Under the pieces are notes generated by a model. It saw nothing but the letters and a program-made list of their open reading frames with translations. It had not been told where the DNA came from and searched no databases. The position numbers and the translations under genes were made by a program. From Janthinobacterium sp. 64 (lineage in GTDB: Bacteria > Pseudomonadota > Gammaproteobacteria > Burkholderiales > Burkholderiaceae_D): DNA of 64,000 nucleotides. Location: positions 620,001 through 684,000 of the forward strand of contig NZ_PHUG01000001.1 in assembly GCF_002813325.1 (NCBI RefSeq), given 5' to 3'. Of this stretch, positions 36,701 to 40,770 are shown piece by piece; position 1 is the stretch's first letter, and each line of letters starts with the position of its first letter.

Positions 36701-36806
36701 CGGCCTGATCCTGGCGACGGCCTTGACTTTATTGTTCCTGCCAGCCCTGTATGCGGCCTGGTTCCGGGTCAAGAGGCCGGTGGAGGCAGCCAAGGTCGAA
36801 GGTTAA
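33708..36806 (+). CDS. RND efflux transporter permease
   Basis: This 1032-residue inner-membrane pump of the AcrB/HAE family has twelve predicted membrane helices in two repeats: a first helix near the N-terminus, helices at about 340-500, one near 540, and helices 8-12 at about 860-1020. Proton-relay Asp residues D413 and D414 lie in the fourth helix (LGLLVDDAIIAVE). Large periplasmic loops would form the drug-binding and docking domains. Substrates are unknown. No outer-membrane factor gene follows, so a shared TolC-like channel elsewhere is expected. Confidence 0.93.
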   Translation: MKGGFNLSRWALEHIPLTRYLMAVLLIGGMLSYASLGQDEDPPFTFRAMVLQAYWPGATALQMAEQVTDKLEKKLQETPYINEITSYSKPGETLILLELRESAPPKETAAAWYQVRKKIGDIKGTLPAGVVGPFFNDEFGDTYGSIFALSGDGFTYAEMKDYADKVRQELLAVGQVSKVELFGVQDEKINIIFSHKKFAQLGIPFDAIVQQLSEQNSINATGVLVTPTDNLQVRVTGAMVSVKDLENLELRANGTTFRLGDFATVKREFVDPPKDKMRFNGKEVIGLGVSMEKGGNIIDMGKALQATVTRMKSELPVGIELQRVSNQPEAVSASVGEFVHTLIEAILIVLAVSFIALGLHTKPLRIDVRPGLVVALTIPLVLAVTFLFMRLLDIDLHKISLGALIIALGLLVDDAIIAVEMMVRKMEEGMSRFDAATFAYTSTAMPMLTGTLITVAGFLPIGLAKSAAGEYTFSLFSVNALALIISWVVAVVFTPYIGYVLLKVKPHAHNDHELFDTPNFRRFRRAVTWCVEWRKTTIAATLAIFALGIYGFNFIEKQFFPDSSRPELMVELWSPEGTTFAANEKQVKKFEAFVGKLDGVDSVTSYVGTGSPRFYLPLDQIFPQTNVSQVVILPKSLADRERLRQKIIDVFKKDFPEVRGRVKLLPNGPPVPYPVQFRVTGPEVAGVRAIADQVKDVMRANPNTLGVNDNWNESVKVLRLDLDQDKMRALGVTSKTVMQAANTILSGTVIGQFREDNKLIDIQVRQPLEERATISVLNDTNIPTATGKSVPISQLARVHFVWEPGVVWRDKREWAITVQSDVIDGIQGATVSTQLAPQLDALRARMPDGYRITVKGVAADSGEAEASIATNLPLAIFIIFTLLMLQLHSFSRSLLVFLTGPLGVAGAAFALLALGRPLGFVANLGIIALFGMIIRNSVILVDQIEQDINDGSAPWDAIIDSAVRRCRPIVLTAAAAALAMIPLSRSVFWGPMAVAIMGGLILATALTLLFLPALYAAWFRVKRPVEAAKVEG

Positions 36807-36833
36807 ATAGTCACCCCAGGCCACTGGCATAAA

Positions 36834-36876
36834 AAAGGCGGCATTCCTCTGGGAAATCCAGTAGAATGCCGCCTTT
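36834..36876 (+). terminator. Terminator-like hairpin after the RND operon
   Basis: AAAGGCGGCATTC (36834-36846) pairs perfectly with GAATGCCGCCTTT (36864-36876). Only three T follow on the plus strand. On the minus strand the hairpin ends with six T (the run of A at 36831-36836), so it may also stop leftward transcripts. Confidence 0.7.
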
Positions 36877-36888
36877 GCTTTACCGAGC

Positions 36889-36962
36889 GCTTGCTCCCGG
36901 CTTGCTCAATGAGTCCACGGTAGCCAGATCGCTCCCGAGTTGTTAAAATCAAGGGAGCAAGC
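36889..36962. repeat. Long-spaced inverted repeat upstream of tRNA-Leu
   Basis: GCTTGCTCCC (36889-36898) and GGGAGCAAGC (36953-36962) are perfect 10-bp inverted arms 54 bp apart, ending 21 bp before the tRNA. The interval contains a TTGTTAAAAT stretch that could be part of the tRNA promoter. Function unknown. Confidence 0.55.
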
Positions 36963-36983
36963 TAGCACAAAGTAGTACCAAAT

Positions 36984-37066
36984 GCGGATGTGGTGGAATT
37001 GGTAGACACGCTGGTCTTAGAAGCCAGTGCTTCGGCTTGGGAGTTCGAGTCTCCCCATCCGCACCA
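36984..37066 (+). tRNA. tRNA-Leu (anticodon TAG)
   Basis: An 83-nt cloverleaf with acceptor GCGGATG/CATCCGC, D-arm GGTGGAATTGGTAGACAC, anticodon loop CTTAGAA (anticodon TAG, reading CUA/CUG), a long class II variable arm (TGCTTCGGCTT) and T-arm GTTCGAGTC. The 3' CCA is encoded (37064-37066). The long variable arm confirms Leu type. Confidence 0.97.
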
Positions 37067-37124
37067 ATCCGGGTTGTTCCAGCCCGGAAGTGCAGCGCCA
37101 TCAAGATATGTTCCGAGGTAGTCA

Positions 37125-38669
37125 TCAACCGAGTGCGCCGAGCGCGGCCAGTTGCCGGCTCGATAGTTGCACCATCTGCGCAAGCTGCGCCAGCGCCTGC
37201 GGATAGACGCTTCTTTCCATCAATTTATCATCTTCAGTCAGCGGCCAGAGTGCCTGCAACACGCGCTGCCGCGCCTGCGGCCAGCTTTGCTCTTGCGCAT
37301 GCGTTGCTGGCGGCAATTCCCTGTCCAGCAGGTGCAGCGCCTCGCGCGTCATCGTCAATTCTTGCTGCGCCTGCCGGCCCAGCGTGTCGCTACGGGGCGG
37401 CGGCTGTTGCGCAAGATACGTGTCGAGCTTGCGGCTCTGGCGCTCGTACAGGTCGAGCAGCAAGTGCAGGGTGGCGCCGCTGGGACGCCGTTGCGTGTCG
37501 AGCGTGTCGAGCACATCGAGCAGCCAATGCGTCATGTGCCGTCCCGCCTGTCGCAGCTCCGGCCAGGTCGTGCTGTGCAATTGCTCGCCCAGGTAGCGGG
37601 CGCGGTCGATGGCGCGGCGGCTGCCGCTCATGTGCTGGCCGATGGGGCCGTACTGTGGCGCCAGCGCCGCTTCCTGCCGCTCGGCCAGCAGGCACAGCAA
37701 GGCCAGGTGGACATACACATGAAAGGCGGCCAGGGTGCGGTGGGCATCCCAATAGTGATTGCCGTCATCATCGGGCGCATTCCACAGCGAACAGACCTTG
37801 GCGCCATCCTCGCGCGCATAATCGGGCGCCAGCAGGCGATGGCCGTGGCGGAAGTCGTACAGCTTCTGGTGCAGGGACTCGTGCAGCAAGTGCTCGGCCA
37901 GCCACCAGGGGTTGCCGATCAGTTCCTGGTTCAGGAAGACGCTGCCATTGACGCGAAATTGCGAGCTGGAGGCCTTGCCGCGCCACGTGCCCAGCTTGGG
38001 AAACAGCGCAATCAATTGCACGTGAGAAAGCGCGCTGGCCGTCAGGCGGGGCAGCAGTGTTTCCAGCAGCCGCAGGCCCCGGCGCAGCAGAGCCCGTTCC
38101 TGCGGCGTGGGCGTGGCCAGCGGCGCGCCGTAGTTATCTTCCATCACGGCAAGGAAGGCGCGCGCGTACGGTGTGCCTTCCTGCCAGGCATGCCATATAT
38201 AAGTGTCTTCGTTCTGTGGGCTGGCTTCGTCGTGCAGGCGCGCCATGGGCGGCAAATGGGCCACCAGCGGGCCGCCGGGCAAACCCGCCCGCAGGTGCTC
38301 GCCCGCCGCCAGGAACAGCGCTGCGCATTGCGGCAAAGGCAAGCCGTAGTCGTCGCCCAGATGCAGTTGGCGCATGGCGTGTTGCACGGCGCAGCGCAGC
38401 ACCGTGTCGCCCAGCAACTGGCGCTGGCGCTCCGGTGGCGCCGCATCGAGCAGCGTGGCCAGGCTTTCCGCCTCGGGCAGGGCACCACCGAGCTTGTGCA
38501 GGCGCCGCCGGTAGGCGACGGCCAGCTGGTCGCGGATATAGTTGCTGTCGCCAAAGGCGCGGTGGCTGGCCAGCGCCGTTTCCACGGCGGCCAGCACGAC
38601 TGCATCCGGTGCTGCGGCACGCATGGCAAGCGCAGCCACTGCCGGCTCAGGCGGCGGTGGGGTGATCAT
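37125..38669 (-). CDS. HExxH protein, likely aKG-HExxH-type peptide beta-hydroxylase
   Basis: This 514-residue protein contains H263-E-S-L-H267 in WWLAEHLLHESLHQKLYDF, followed about 60 residues later by W...AHRTLAAFHVYVHLALL. This pattern matches the HEXXH-motif family (TIGR04267-like), known as alpha-ketoglutarate-dependent peptide beta-hydroxylases linked to ribosomally made peptides. His263 and His267 would bind iron, and a downstream His may complete the site. The N-terminal 200 residues are helical and could recognise a leader peptide. It overlaps by 23 nt a short gene encoding a candidate substrate peptide. The start at 38669 has only a distant GGGAG; M16 (38624) is an alternative. Family membership is inferred from motifs. 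Confidence 0.72.
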   Translation of the reverse strand: MITPPPPEPAVAALAMRAAAPDAVVLAAVETALASHRAFGDSNYIRDQLAVAYRRRLHKLGGALPEAESLATLLDAAPPERQRQLLGDTVLRCAVQHAMRQLHLGDDYGLPLPQCAALFLAAGEHLRAGLPGGPLVAHLPPMARLHDEASPQNEDTYIWHAWQEGTPYARAFLAVMEDNYGAPLATPTPQERALLRRGLRLLETLLPRLTASALSHVQLIALFPKLGTWRGKASSSQFRVNGSVFLNQELIGNPWWLAEHLLHESLHQKLYDFRHGHRLLAPDYAREDGAKVCSLWNAPDDDGNHYWDAHRTLAAFHVYVHLALLCLLAERQEAALAPQYGPIGQHMSGSRRAIDRARYLGEQLHSTTWPELRQAGRHMTHWLLDVLDTLDTQRRPSGATLHLLLDLYERQSRKLDTYLAQQPPPRSDTLGRQAQQELTMTREALHLLDRELPPATHAQEQSWPQARQRVLQALWPLTEDDKLMERSVYPQALAQLAQMVQLSSRQLAALGALG

Positions 38670-38829
38670 GGTCGTGATGGCCGTCTCCCTTCATGCGCAA
38701 TTCCATTTCATCGACTTCCGTCTGGATTTTTTGCAGGTCGTCGTCCGTTACCCCGTCGAGCAGGCGGCTGAGGACCATTTGCAGCTTGGCTTTGGCGTTG
38801 CTGGAAGTGCCGGGTGCGCTATCGCTCAT
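38647..38829 (-). CDS. Candidate RiPP precursor peptide, His/Asp-rich C-terminus
   Basis: This 60-residue protein starts at the ATG at 38829 with a strong GGAGAAAA ribosome site. Residues 1-45 form a charged, helix-prone leader-like segment (KLQMVLSRLLDGVTDDDLQK, then a Glu-rich part). The last 14 residues (KGDGHHDHDHPTAA) alternate His and Asp, residues that aKG-HExxH enzymes could hydroxylate or that could bind metal. There is no signal peptide. Its end overlaps the HExxH gene in another frame, so the two are coupled. No protease or transporter lies in the unit, so the peptide may act inside the cell or be exported elsewhere. A nickel/metal chaperone-like role is an alternative. Confidence 0.7.
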   Translation of the reverse strand: MSDSAPGTSSNAKAKLQMVLSRLLDGVTDDDLQKIQTEVDEMELRMKGDGHHDHDHPTAA

Positions 38830-39142
38830 GATATTTTCTCCATTAAATTCACTTGGAGAGAGGAACGGCGGCTTAGGTTTGCCTGAAAAATGGCCAAATT
38901 GAGGTAAATCAAAGGTTTTTTGACCGAAATCTTCGTCAAGAGCGCATTTCTTTGTTTCGGACGGAGCGACAGTTCGCATATACTAATGAACGAAGCAGGC
39001 TGGAAAGCCTGTCTCTGGCGAAATAAGAAAAGCCGGGGCAAGAGTAAAGACAGGGCAACCCAGGCTGTGGCGATTCGTTCGCCGCCGCTGGCATCCTCTG
39101 TGGCCGGGCCGCAAAGCCAGCCACTTTCCCGAAGTCCTTTGT
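38830..39142. other. Spacer between the HExxH locus and the tig promoter
   Basis: About 310 bp holding the divergent promoter areas. It is AT-richer near 38870-38990 and contains no open frame with coding character or recognisable RNA. The minus-strand promoter for the peptide/HExxH pair must lie here but no clear -35/-10 pair was found. Confidence 0.4.
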
Positions 39143-39429
39143 TATAATGCCACGCTTTACCGAATGATGGCCGGCCTTGCATTTACCTGGAAGCAAGGCT
39201 GGACGCTCGGAGCCCTGTCGCAGTACTGGAAGCGGCGGATTGTTTGGTGCCTGGTGCGGGTTTTTCCCTCAGCCGGGTAGACCAGGTCCATCGTCCTGTT
39301 TTCAGTACTTTTACAGATGAATATGCGAGCGAGTGAAGCTGGACCCATGTCTTGCCGCCAGTGATGGCGCAAGGGGTCGGGTCTTCTTTTCTCGCACCAA
39401 CAGTGTTTATTTTTTGGACGATTTTTTAC
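39143..39429 (+). promoter_or_regulatory. tig: tig promoter and long structured leader
   Basis: A consensus -10 TATAAT at 39143-39148 (-35 weak) would start a leader of about 275 nt before tig. Two hairpins are readable: GCCTTGC/GCAAGGC (39174-39199) and CCTGGT/ACCAGG (39250-39296), the latter enclosing a run of T. The leader has no open frame of note and could fold as a regulatory RNA or thermosensor-like element. This is inference. Confidence 0.5.
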
Positions 39430-40770
39430 ATGGCAACTGCAGTCGAAACCTTGGGCAAACTCGAACGTCGTATCACGATCTCCTTCCCGCTGACGGACGT
39501 CCGCACGGAAGTTGAGAAGCGCCTGAAAGTGCAAGCCCGTACGGCTAAGGCACCGGGCTTCCGTCCGGGCAAAGTGCCGTTGAAAATGGTCGCAGCACAA
39601 TACGGCTACCAAATTGAATCCGAAGTGCTGAACGACAAAGTCGGCCGCGCGTTCAACGACGCCGCCAACGAAAACAATCTGCGCGTGGCCGGTTTCCCGA
39701 ACATCGTGCCGAAAGAAGAAGCAGCCGAAGGCCAACTGGCTTTCGACGCAACGTTCGAAGTGTATCCGGAAGTCGCCATCGGCGACCTGACGGCCGTTGA
39801 AATCGAAACCGTGCAAGCCGAGGTATCGGAAGCCGAAATCGACAAGACCATCGATATCCTGCGCAAGCAGCGCGTGCACTTCCACACCAAGGGCGAAGCT
39901 GGCGAACACGGCGACGGCGGTGAAGCTATCGCTGCCAATGGCGACCGCGTGACCGTCGACTTCGTCGGCTCGATCGACGGCGTTGAATTCCCAGGCGGCA
40001 AAGCTGAAGGCTACGCTTTCGTGCTGGGCGAAGGCCGCATGCTGCCAGAATTCGAAGCAGCTACCCTGGGTCTGAAAGTGGGCGAAGCCAAGACTTTCCC
40101 GTTGTCGTTCCCAGAGGACTACCACGGTAAAGACGTGGCCGGCAAAACCGCATCGTTCACCATCACCTTGCAAAAGCTGGAATGGGCGCACCTGCCGGAA
40201 GTCGATGCTGAATTCGCCAAGTCCCTGGGCGTTGCCGATGGCGACCTGGCCAAAATGCGCGAAGACATCAAAGTCAACCTGCAGCGTGAAGTCGCTGGCC
40301 GCGTGAAAGCGCGCAACAAGGAAGCCGTCATGGACGCGCTGATCAAAGTTGCTGAGCTGGAAGTGCCAAAAACGCTGATCGCTCAGGATTCCGAGCGCCT
40401 GGCCGAAATGACCCGTCAAGACATGGCGCAGCGCGGCATGAACGTCAAGGACGTGCCGTTCCCAGCAGAACTGTTCGCGGAAAAAGCCGAGCGTCGCGTA
40501 CGCCTGGGCCTGATCCTGTCGCAACTGGTGGGCGACAACAAGCTGCAAGCAACGCCTGAGCAAGTCAAGGCGCAAATCGAAGATTTCGCCCAAAGCTACG
40601 AAGATCCACGCGAAGTGCTGAAGTACTACTACAGCGACCGTCGTCGTCTGGGTGAGATCGAAGCCCTTGTATTGGAAGAAAACGTCGTCACCTACGTGTT
40701 GGGCCTGTCGAAAGTCACGACGAAAGCAGTTGCTTTCGACGAACTGATGGGAAGCAACGCACAAGCGTAA
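39430..40770 (+). CDS. tig: Trigger factor
   Basis: This 446-residue ribosome-associated chaperone has the N-terminal ribosome-binding signature GFRPGKVP (around residues 40-50), a central FKBP-type peptidyl-prolyl isomerase domain (about 150-240, with [14 protein letters not shown]) and a helical C-terminal chaperone domain. It folds nascent chains at the exit tunnel. I chose the ATG at 39430 ([14 protein letters not shown]), the canonical start. Only a weak GGAC lies upstream, so the leader may modulate initiation. It heads the tig-clpP-clpX-lon cluster. Confidence 0.97.

Follow-up and report, generated by a model that had tools for sequence, protein, structure and literature searches.

Layout of the locus

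The DNA analysed here (the window) is a stretch of 64,000 nucleotides from Janthinobacterium sp. 64 (contig NZ_PHUG01000001.1, positions 620,001 to 684,000), whose genome comprises two contigs and 6.3 Mb and whose genus includes named Janthinobacterium records. On its minus strand, a gene for a 60-residue peptide with a His/Asp tail precedes a gene for a protein with an HExxH motif. The initial annotation had read this pair as a candidate minimal locus for a ribosomally synthesized and post-translationally modified peptide (RiPP), the tail being the substrate of an α-ketoglutarate-dependent HExxH (aKG-HExxH) peptide hydroxylase. The features of the pair are as follows.

38647..38829 (stop included), minus strand: precursor-like peptide gene, 60 amino acids, under purifying selection; orthologues adjoin the enzyme gene in 17 of 40 genus genomes, including this one
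38683..38829, minus strand: leader-like part, residues 1–49, with predicted helices and the conserved pattern KAKLxMVLxxLLDxVxDDDLxxIQTxVDE
38656..38682, minus strand: candidate core GHHDHDHPT, residues 50–58, the proposed site of β-hydroxylation
38836..38841, minus strand: ribosome binding site GGAGAA of the peptide gene, read from the sequence, with copies compared
37125..38639, minus strand: putative aKG-HExxH-type peptide β-hydroxylase gene, with a likely start at GTG 38639; the frame is open from ATG 38669, the start chosen in the initial annotation
37869..37883, minus strand: HESLH motif, residues 263–267 (HE[SA]LH in kin, HESPH in the truncated L022)
37719..37721, minus strand: His317 in AAFHVYVHL, candidate third metal ligand, invariant in A2 (10/10)

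The two open reading frames (ORFs) were recovered as annotated: the peptide ends in GDGHHDHDHPTAA, and the neighbouring frame, counted from ATG 38669, encodes 514 residues (37125–38669, minus strand) and contains HESLH. The strong ribosome binding site described for the peptide gene was likewise found, 6 nt 5' of its ATG. The reported 23-nt overlap between the genes did not hold in the comparison of copies. An overlapping in-frame ATG is present in only 5 of the 15 intact copies and in two different places, giving 23 nt (window and L010) or 38 nt (L012, L014 and L019), and in L016, L017, L023 and L024 the enzyme frame is closed up to the peptide stop and open from there on. An in-frame ATG or GTG follows 7–18 nt past the peptide stop in 14 of the 15, L019 being the exception, and L011 and L018 carry ATG at the position of GTG 38639. 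Since overlapping starts are so few and an alternative start is nearly always available after the peptide stop, these alignments identify the genes as close neighbours, 7 nt apart in the window, rather than as overlapping genes, and GTG 38639 is the likely enzyme start here.

The peptide and its partner enzyme

AlphaFold predicts two helices in the peptide (residues 9–24 and 29–48) followed by a tail without structure, with a predicted local distance difference test (pLDDT) score of 78 and a predicted template modelling (pTM) score of 0.42, in agreement, at the level of prediction, with the helical leader-like part originally described. The GHHDHDHPT tail is identical in all 15 intact copies while its codons change synonymously, and the residue that follows HPT may be A, V, L or R. 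Relative to the window, the ratio of nonsynonymous to synonymous substitution rates (dN/dS) in the intact copies is 0.02–0.29 for the peptide and 0.16–0.38 for the enzyme, whose sequences are 54–91% identical to that of the window. As judged from these alignments, tail and leader are conserved beyond chance, and a leader part with a conserved core, as in RiPP precursors, is present at the sequence level. The segment HHDHDHP packs four His, two Asp and one Pro into seven residues; Phe, Trp and Tyr are absent from the window's peptide, as are a Gln run and an ARMD motif.

The only NCBIfam match of the enzyme, at E values up to 1, is TIGR04267 (35.8 bits against a curated cut-off of 40). No Pfam family was matched, and hence no peptidase profile, and neither Pfam nor NCBIfam gave a radical S-adenosylmethionine (rSAM) match. 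The predicted model has the HExxH oxygenase fold of ChlB (PDB 8s5f), which it matches far above zinc peptidases. HESLH or HEALH occurs in the 15 intact copies and aligns with the HExxH of 12 family rows; in the wider family alignment, a His occupies the column of His317 in 6 of 15 rows and stands three columns earlier in 7 more. By predicted fold and by a profile match under the curated cut-off, the enzyme groups with the aKG-HExxH peptide β-hydroxylases (TIGR04267/IPR026337), as had been proposed, rather than with plain metalloproteases.

Distribution and co-inheritance in the genus

Both genes were found in 17 of the 40 genus genomes and neither in 22; the remaining genome is G420. Loci L001–L008 match eight of the G loci and were counted once. 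The pair occupies the same place in all 17 carriers, of which 16 have a near-full-length enzyme and one, G416, a truncated one. The small gene thus accompanies the enzyme in every near-full-length case and in the truncated one; its absence from relatives, named as counter-evidence in the initial annotation, was not observed among them. The two genes are inherited together as linked neighbours and maintained by purifying selection, and a precursor-like gene consistently stands beside the putative modifying enzyme. In G420, a 3.2-kb contig ends with the C-terminal part of an HExxH homologue of 40% identity (L072:2720-3235), whereas the usual site (L096) holds no pair; this genome may have a second locus of greater divergence.

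Two carriers have departed from the common pattern. In G437 (L021), the peptide ends in GDSHPAPA and has a dN/dS of 0.67, and its enzyme, which retains HEALH, is changed at 22 of 201 positions invariant in the others. In G416 (L022), the tail is two residues shorter, although the peptide dN/dS is an ordinary 0.15, and the enzyme lacks residues 1–195, reads HESPH and is changed at 10 of 147 otherwise invariant positions. The other 15 enzymes change 0–5 of about 202 invariant positions, except that of L025, which branches deepest and changes 54 of 255, so the count of changed positions also grows with distance. The tail is therefore shortened or lost in the two copies whose enzyme is degraded, a joint decay that, on the sequences, fits a shared function.

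Empty sites were compared upstream of tig in 20 of the 23 genomes without the pair, including G420 and leaving out G419, G426 and G435. In all 20, tRNA-Leu stands close to tig, and no match to the peptide or enzyme gene was detected in these stretches. The missing segment was delimited by blastn of the intergenic region against them:

about 37106..38874, no strand: stretch absent in close relatives without the pair

About 130 bp of other sequence replaces it, the edges being read from close relatives. On a tree of the linked acrB end (36 of 37 rows, L092 having no acrB), presence of the pair changes 8 times (6–8 in bootstrap trees), 4 of these changes being forced by well-supported branches, and the presence labels cluster more tightly than they do in most shuffled sets (7–8 of 500 as low). 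These repeated changes mark the pair, on the tree, as an accessory trait with a history of several gains or losses. Extra matches to the acrB 3' end were seen between the main acrB and tRNA-Leu in L006, L008, L010, L021 and L024.

Relatives outside the genus

A hypothetical protein on a Streptomyces xanthophaeus plasmid is 45.8% identical to the window's enzyme over 381 residues (E 1e-85). The annotated gene preceding it, on the same strand and ending 126 nt upstream, encodes a 67-residue hypothetical protein whose final third contains GGHHHHHDDDEPDVV. The His/Asp tail expected in relatives is thus found not only throughout the 15 intact Janthinobacterium copies but also beside a Streptomyces enzyme. 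Eight Janthinobacterium enzymes share 65 invariant positions within residues 229–326, of which the Streptomyces protein keeps 55 and a Nonomuraea relative 30; at the 140 invariant positions elsewhere, they keep 81 and 73, respectively. The leader stretch VTDDDLQKIQ of the window resembles VTDEEVKEMQ of Streptomyces, with 108 of 5000 shuffles scoring as high; the corresponding counts are 72 of 5000 for L024 and 1249 of 5000 for L025. Compared by sequence, the two systems share the tail more than the leader. As a single case, the Streptomyces pair carries the least numerical weight, yet no other evidence from beyond the genus supports the proposed reading as strongly. Leader homology to Nonomuraea was rejected, as 984, 91 and 85 of 5000 shuffles were as good and the alignments disagree.

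Two other actinobacterial neighbourhoods differ in content. On an S. goshikiensis plasmid (L099:5661-13071), an annotated HEXXH peptide modification protein with 26% identity adjoins an annotated FDLD class I lanthipeptide, with a sulfotransferase, a LanC-family gene and a lantibiotic dehydratase as further neighbours. In Nonomuraea gerenzanensis (L098:5653-9437), a stretch with no gene in the PLSDB table whose ORFs were read from the sequence, a 61-residue ORF overlaps the HExxH homologue, after which come an ORF that is rich in Cys and bears FDLD and an ORF resembling LanC.

Beyond the window's genome, no orthologue was found elsewhere in the phylum among 399 genomes of the order, 369 of the class and 398 of the phylum, with at most 3–4 candidates per genome scored among the rows listed; as these draws overlap and so few candidates were scored, the missing orthologues are a weak negative. 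Within the same taxonomic family, 17 genomes outside the genus had TIGR04267 matches of their own, and no short His/Asp-tailed partner was seen beside them in 13 of the 17 (G502, G514, G648 and G658 were left out) with a crude ORF caller that can miss small genes and that skipped the HExxH frame in L067. These genes lie in several gene surroundings (L057–L069), and in L065 two HExxH genes stand side by side. A mobile or phage origin was rejected, as two scans of viral_contigs gave no confirmed relatives and the Streptomyces enzyme as query gave none in phages.

Proposed function and alternatives

Taken together, the pair probably constitutes a minimal two-gene RiPP unit. In a soil bacterium, such a unit seems to represent a small family of modified, possibly metal-binding peptides that has not been described before. 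The original proposal that the tail is the substrate gains support from co-inheritance, joint decay and the Streptomyces counterpart, while hydroxylation and its target residues would follow from analogy. The enzyme may bind the helical part as a leader, and the unstructured tail would then enter an Fe(II)/aKG site formed by His263-Glu264-x-x-His267, with His317 perhaps as third ligand. There, the His and/or Asp residues of HHDHDHP, and perhaps its Pro, would receive β-hydroxyl groups, a reaction considered likely because of the precedents ChlB, PflC/PosC, PesO and BipH. Less weight is given to the suggestion that the β-hydroxylated tail might bind a metal ion, which is made because β-hydroxy-Asp and β-hydroxy-His chelate metals in non-ribosomal metallophores. 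Both roles raised in the initial annotation, metal binding and signalling, are conjecture. Leader removal and export, if they occur, would be left to general cell machinery. A bolder extension, possible though rather doubtful, is a class of ribosomal metal-binding peptides in Janthinobacterium and Streptomyces, in which an aKG-HExxH enzyme would turn the tail into a row of β-hydroxy-His and β-hydroxy-Asp ligands, yielding an intracellular or secreted metallopeptide that an FNR-type site might switch with oxygen.

Several observations count against a RiPP unit. The unit holds no protease, transporter or immunity gene, and the evidence for it is sequence- and model-based. The enzyme scores 4 bits below the TIGR04267 cut-off, which is reached by G424 and G428 and, with neighbours, by G430 and G433 and is missed by ten other genus genomes, the window's own included; the Streptomyces relative (32.8 bits) also falls below it. 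The enzyme model is middling (pLDDT 72, pTM 0.75, ten-residue blocks within 401–514 at 60 or below). Joint decay involves two genomes, and only one His/Asp-tailed copy was found outside the genus; none was seen beside the Nonomuraea or S. goshikiensis enzyme, both of which adjoin lanthipeptide-type genes. Finally, the cross-phylum resemblance between leaders is weak and disappears with the L025 leader.

The small protein could instead be a metal carrier or accessory subunit whose tail supplies the enzyme with Fe(II) or another metal, the enzyme's true substrate lying elsewhere. His/Asp tails bind metals by themselves, the unit has neither protease nor exporter, and the tail is damaged together with the enzyme, all of which suit a carrier. 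We nevertheless consider it unlikely: in the available portions of PMC12636437, PMC13060819 and PMC12707348, characterized aKG-HExxH enzymes act on precursors encoded next to them and no His-rich loader is described, and His and Asp are among the family's reported targets (PMC12636437). Similarly, the enzyme might cleave the peptide, either hydrolytically or through oxidative scission of the backbone, instead of hydroxylating it or in addition to doing so. As described in the accessible part of PMC12636437, oxidative cleavage by PflC and PosC takes place in front of an ARMD motif and leaderless peptide is a substrate for hydrolysis by PflC, and self-cleavage would be economical because the unit has no protease gene; the missing ARMD motif and the variable residue after HPT, by which a site there is not conserved, make this an improbable account. 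That the enzyme is a zinc metalloprotease and the small gene an unrelated or regulatory neighbour is very improbable, as the lack of any Pfam match and the ChlB-like predicted fold speak against a plain metalloprotease.

Surroundings and regulation

The flanking genes, which we take from their sequences to be a resistance-nodulation-division (RND) pump pair, tig, clpP and clpX, are accompanied by a tRNA-Leu, the sole Rfam match at gathering scores in 36800–39440. Neither the window ORFs nor the neighbouring genes place another modifying enzyme, a protease or a transporter inside the two-gene unit, in line with the initial annotation; the pump, tRNA-Leu and tig persist at sites without the pair (the L092 stretch covers only tRNA-Leu and tig). 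One further element lies upstream:

38899..38912, no strand: palindrome resembling FNR/ANR sites, TTGATTTACCTCAA as read on the minus strand, 69 nt upstream of the peptide ATG

This TTGA-N6-TCAA palindrome, which we presume to be of the FNR/ANR type, ends 67–69 nt upstream of the peptide ATG in all 17 copies, including L025 with its diverged surroundings. As it is also present in 13 of the 20 empty-site stretches, its ownership is uncertain and it may belong to tig; oxygen control of the pair is a guess. A consensus scan gave no minus-strand promoter-like site near the pair and one at 39436–39409.

Comparison with known systems

No paper joining HExxH, Janthinobacterium and RiPP was found, nor any title about such a pair among those listed, in a literature search that mostly did not extend to subscription journals. 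If the proposed function is correct, one enzyme and one peptide would form a very small aKG-HExxH RiPP unit and offer a clean test of the family's action without prior cyclophane, MNIO or other tailoring. The residue types of HHDHDHP are all reported targets of the family, and site selection could be read from one spectrum.

ChlB, which is reported to β-hydroxylate Asp and His of a ribosomal peptide, as recounted in the available part of PMC12636437, shares the HExxH oxygenase fold with the window's enzyme. ChlB is fused to an rSAM domain, whereas the window's enzyme stands alone and has an extra C-terminal part (about 397–514, modelled with low confidence), and the peptide offers no aromatic residue for a cyclophane. 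In Pseudomonas, the pfl/pos clusters (Os1348–1351) likewise place a TIGR04267-type enzyme beside a short precursor without a protease, and PflC and PosC act in a leader-dependent manner, hydroxylating Gln runs and cleaving the backbone, according to the accessible text of PMC12636437. Those clusters, as far as that text describes them, add GNAT, MNIO-nitroreductase and transporter genes and target Gln runs and the ARMD motif; between the pump and clpX of the window there is no MNIO-nitroreductase gene, and the unit is not of the Pfl/Pos type. An 85-residue product of the Os17 cluster affects antibiotic activity, in the portion seen of PMC7726476. PesO (nitrilobacillins) and BipH (biphenomycins) are also aKG-HExxH β-hydroxylases of RiPP precursors: PesO hydroxylates Pro, with His, Asp, Phe and Gln listed as earlier targets (PMC13060819, in part), and BipH acts late in biphenomycin formation (PMC12707348, in part). 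Unlike the two-gene unit, both clusters are multi-enzyme and include MNIOs, in the same portions of these papers.

A product that binds metal would join RiPP chemistry to the β-hydroxy-amino-acid ligands of siderophores. The siderophore β-hydroxylases IBH_His, IBH_Asp and TBH_Asp have a different fold. They would give the same β-hydroxy-His and β-hydroxy-Asp groups, which the available part of PMC12971057 describes as chelating groups of non-ribosomal metallophores. As far as that part extends, these enzymes serve non-ribosomal metallophore pathways (PMC12971057), whereas in the window the putative substrate is a ribosomal peptide and the predicted enzyme fold is of the HExxH type.
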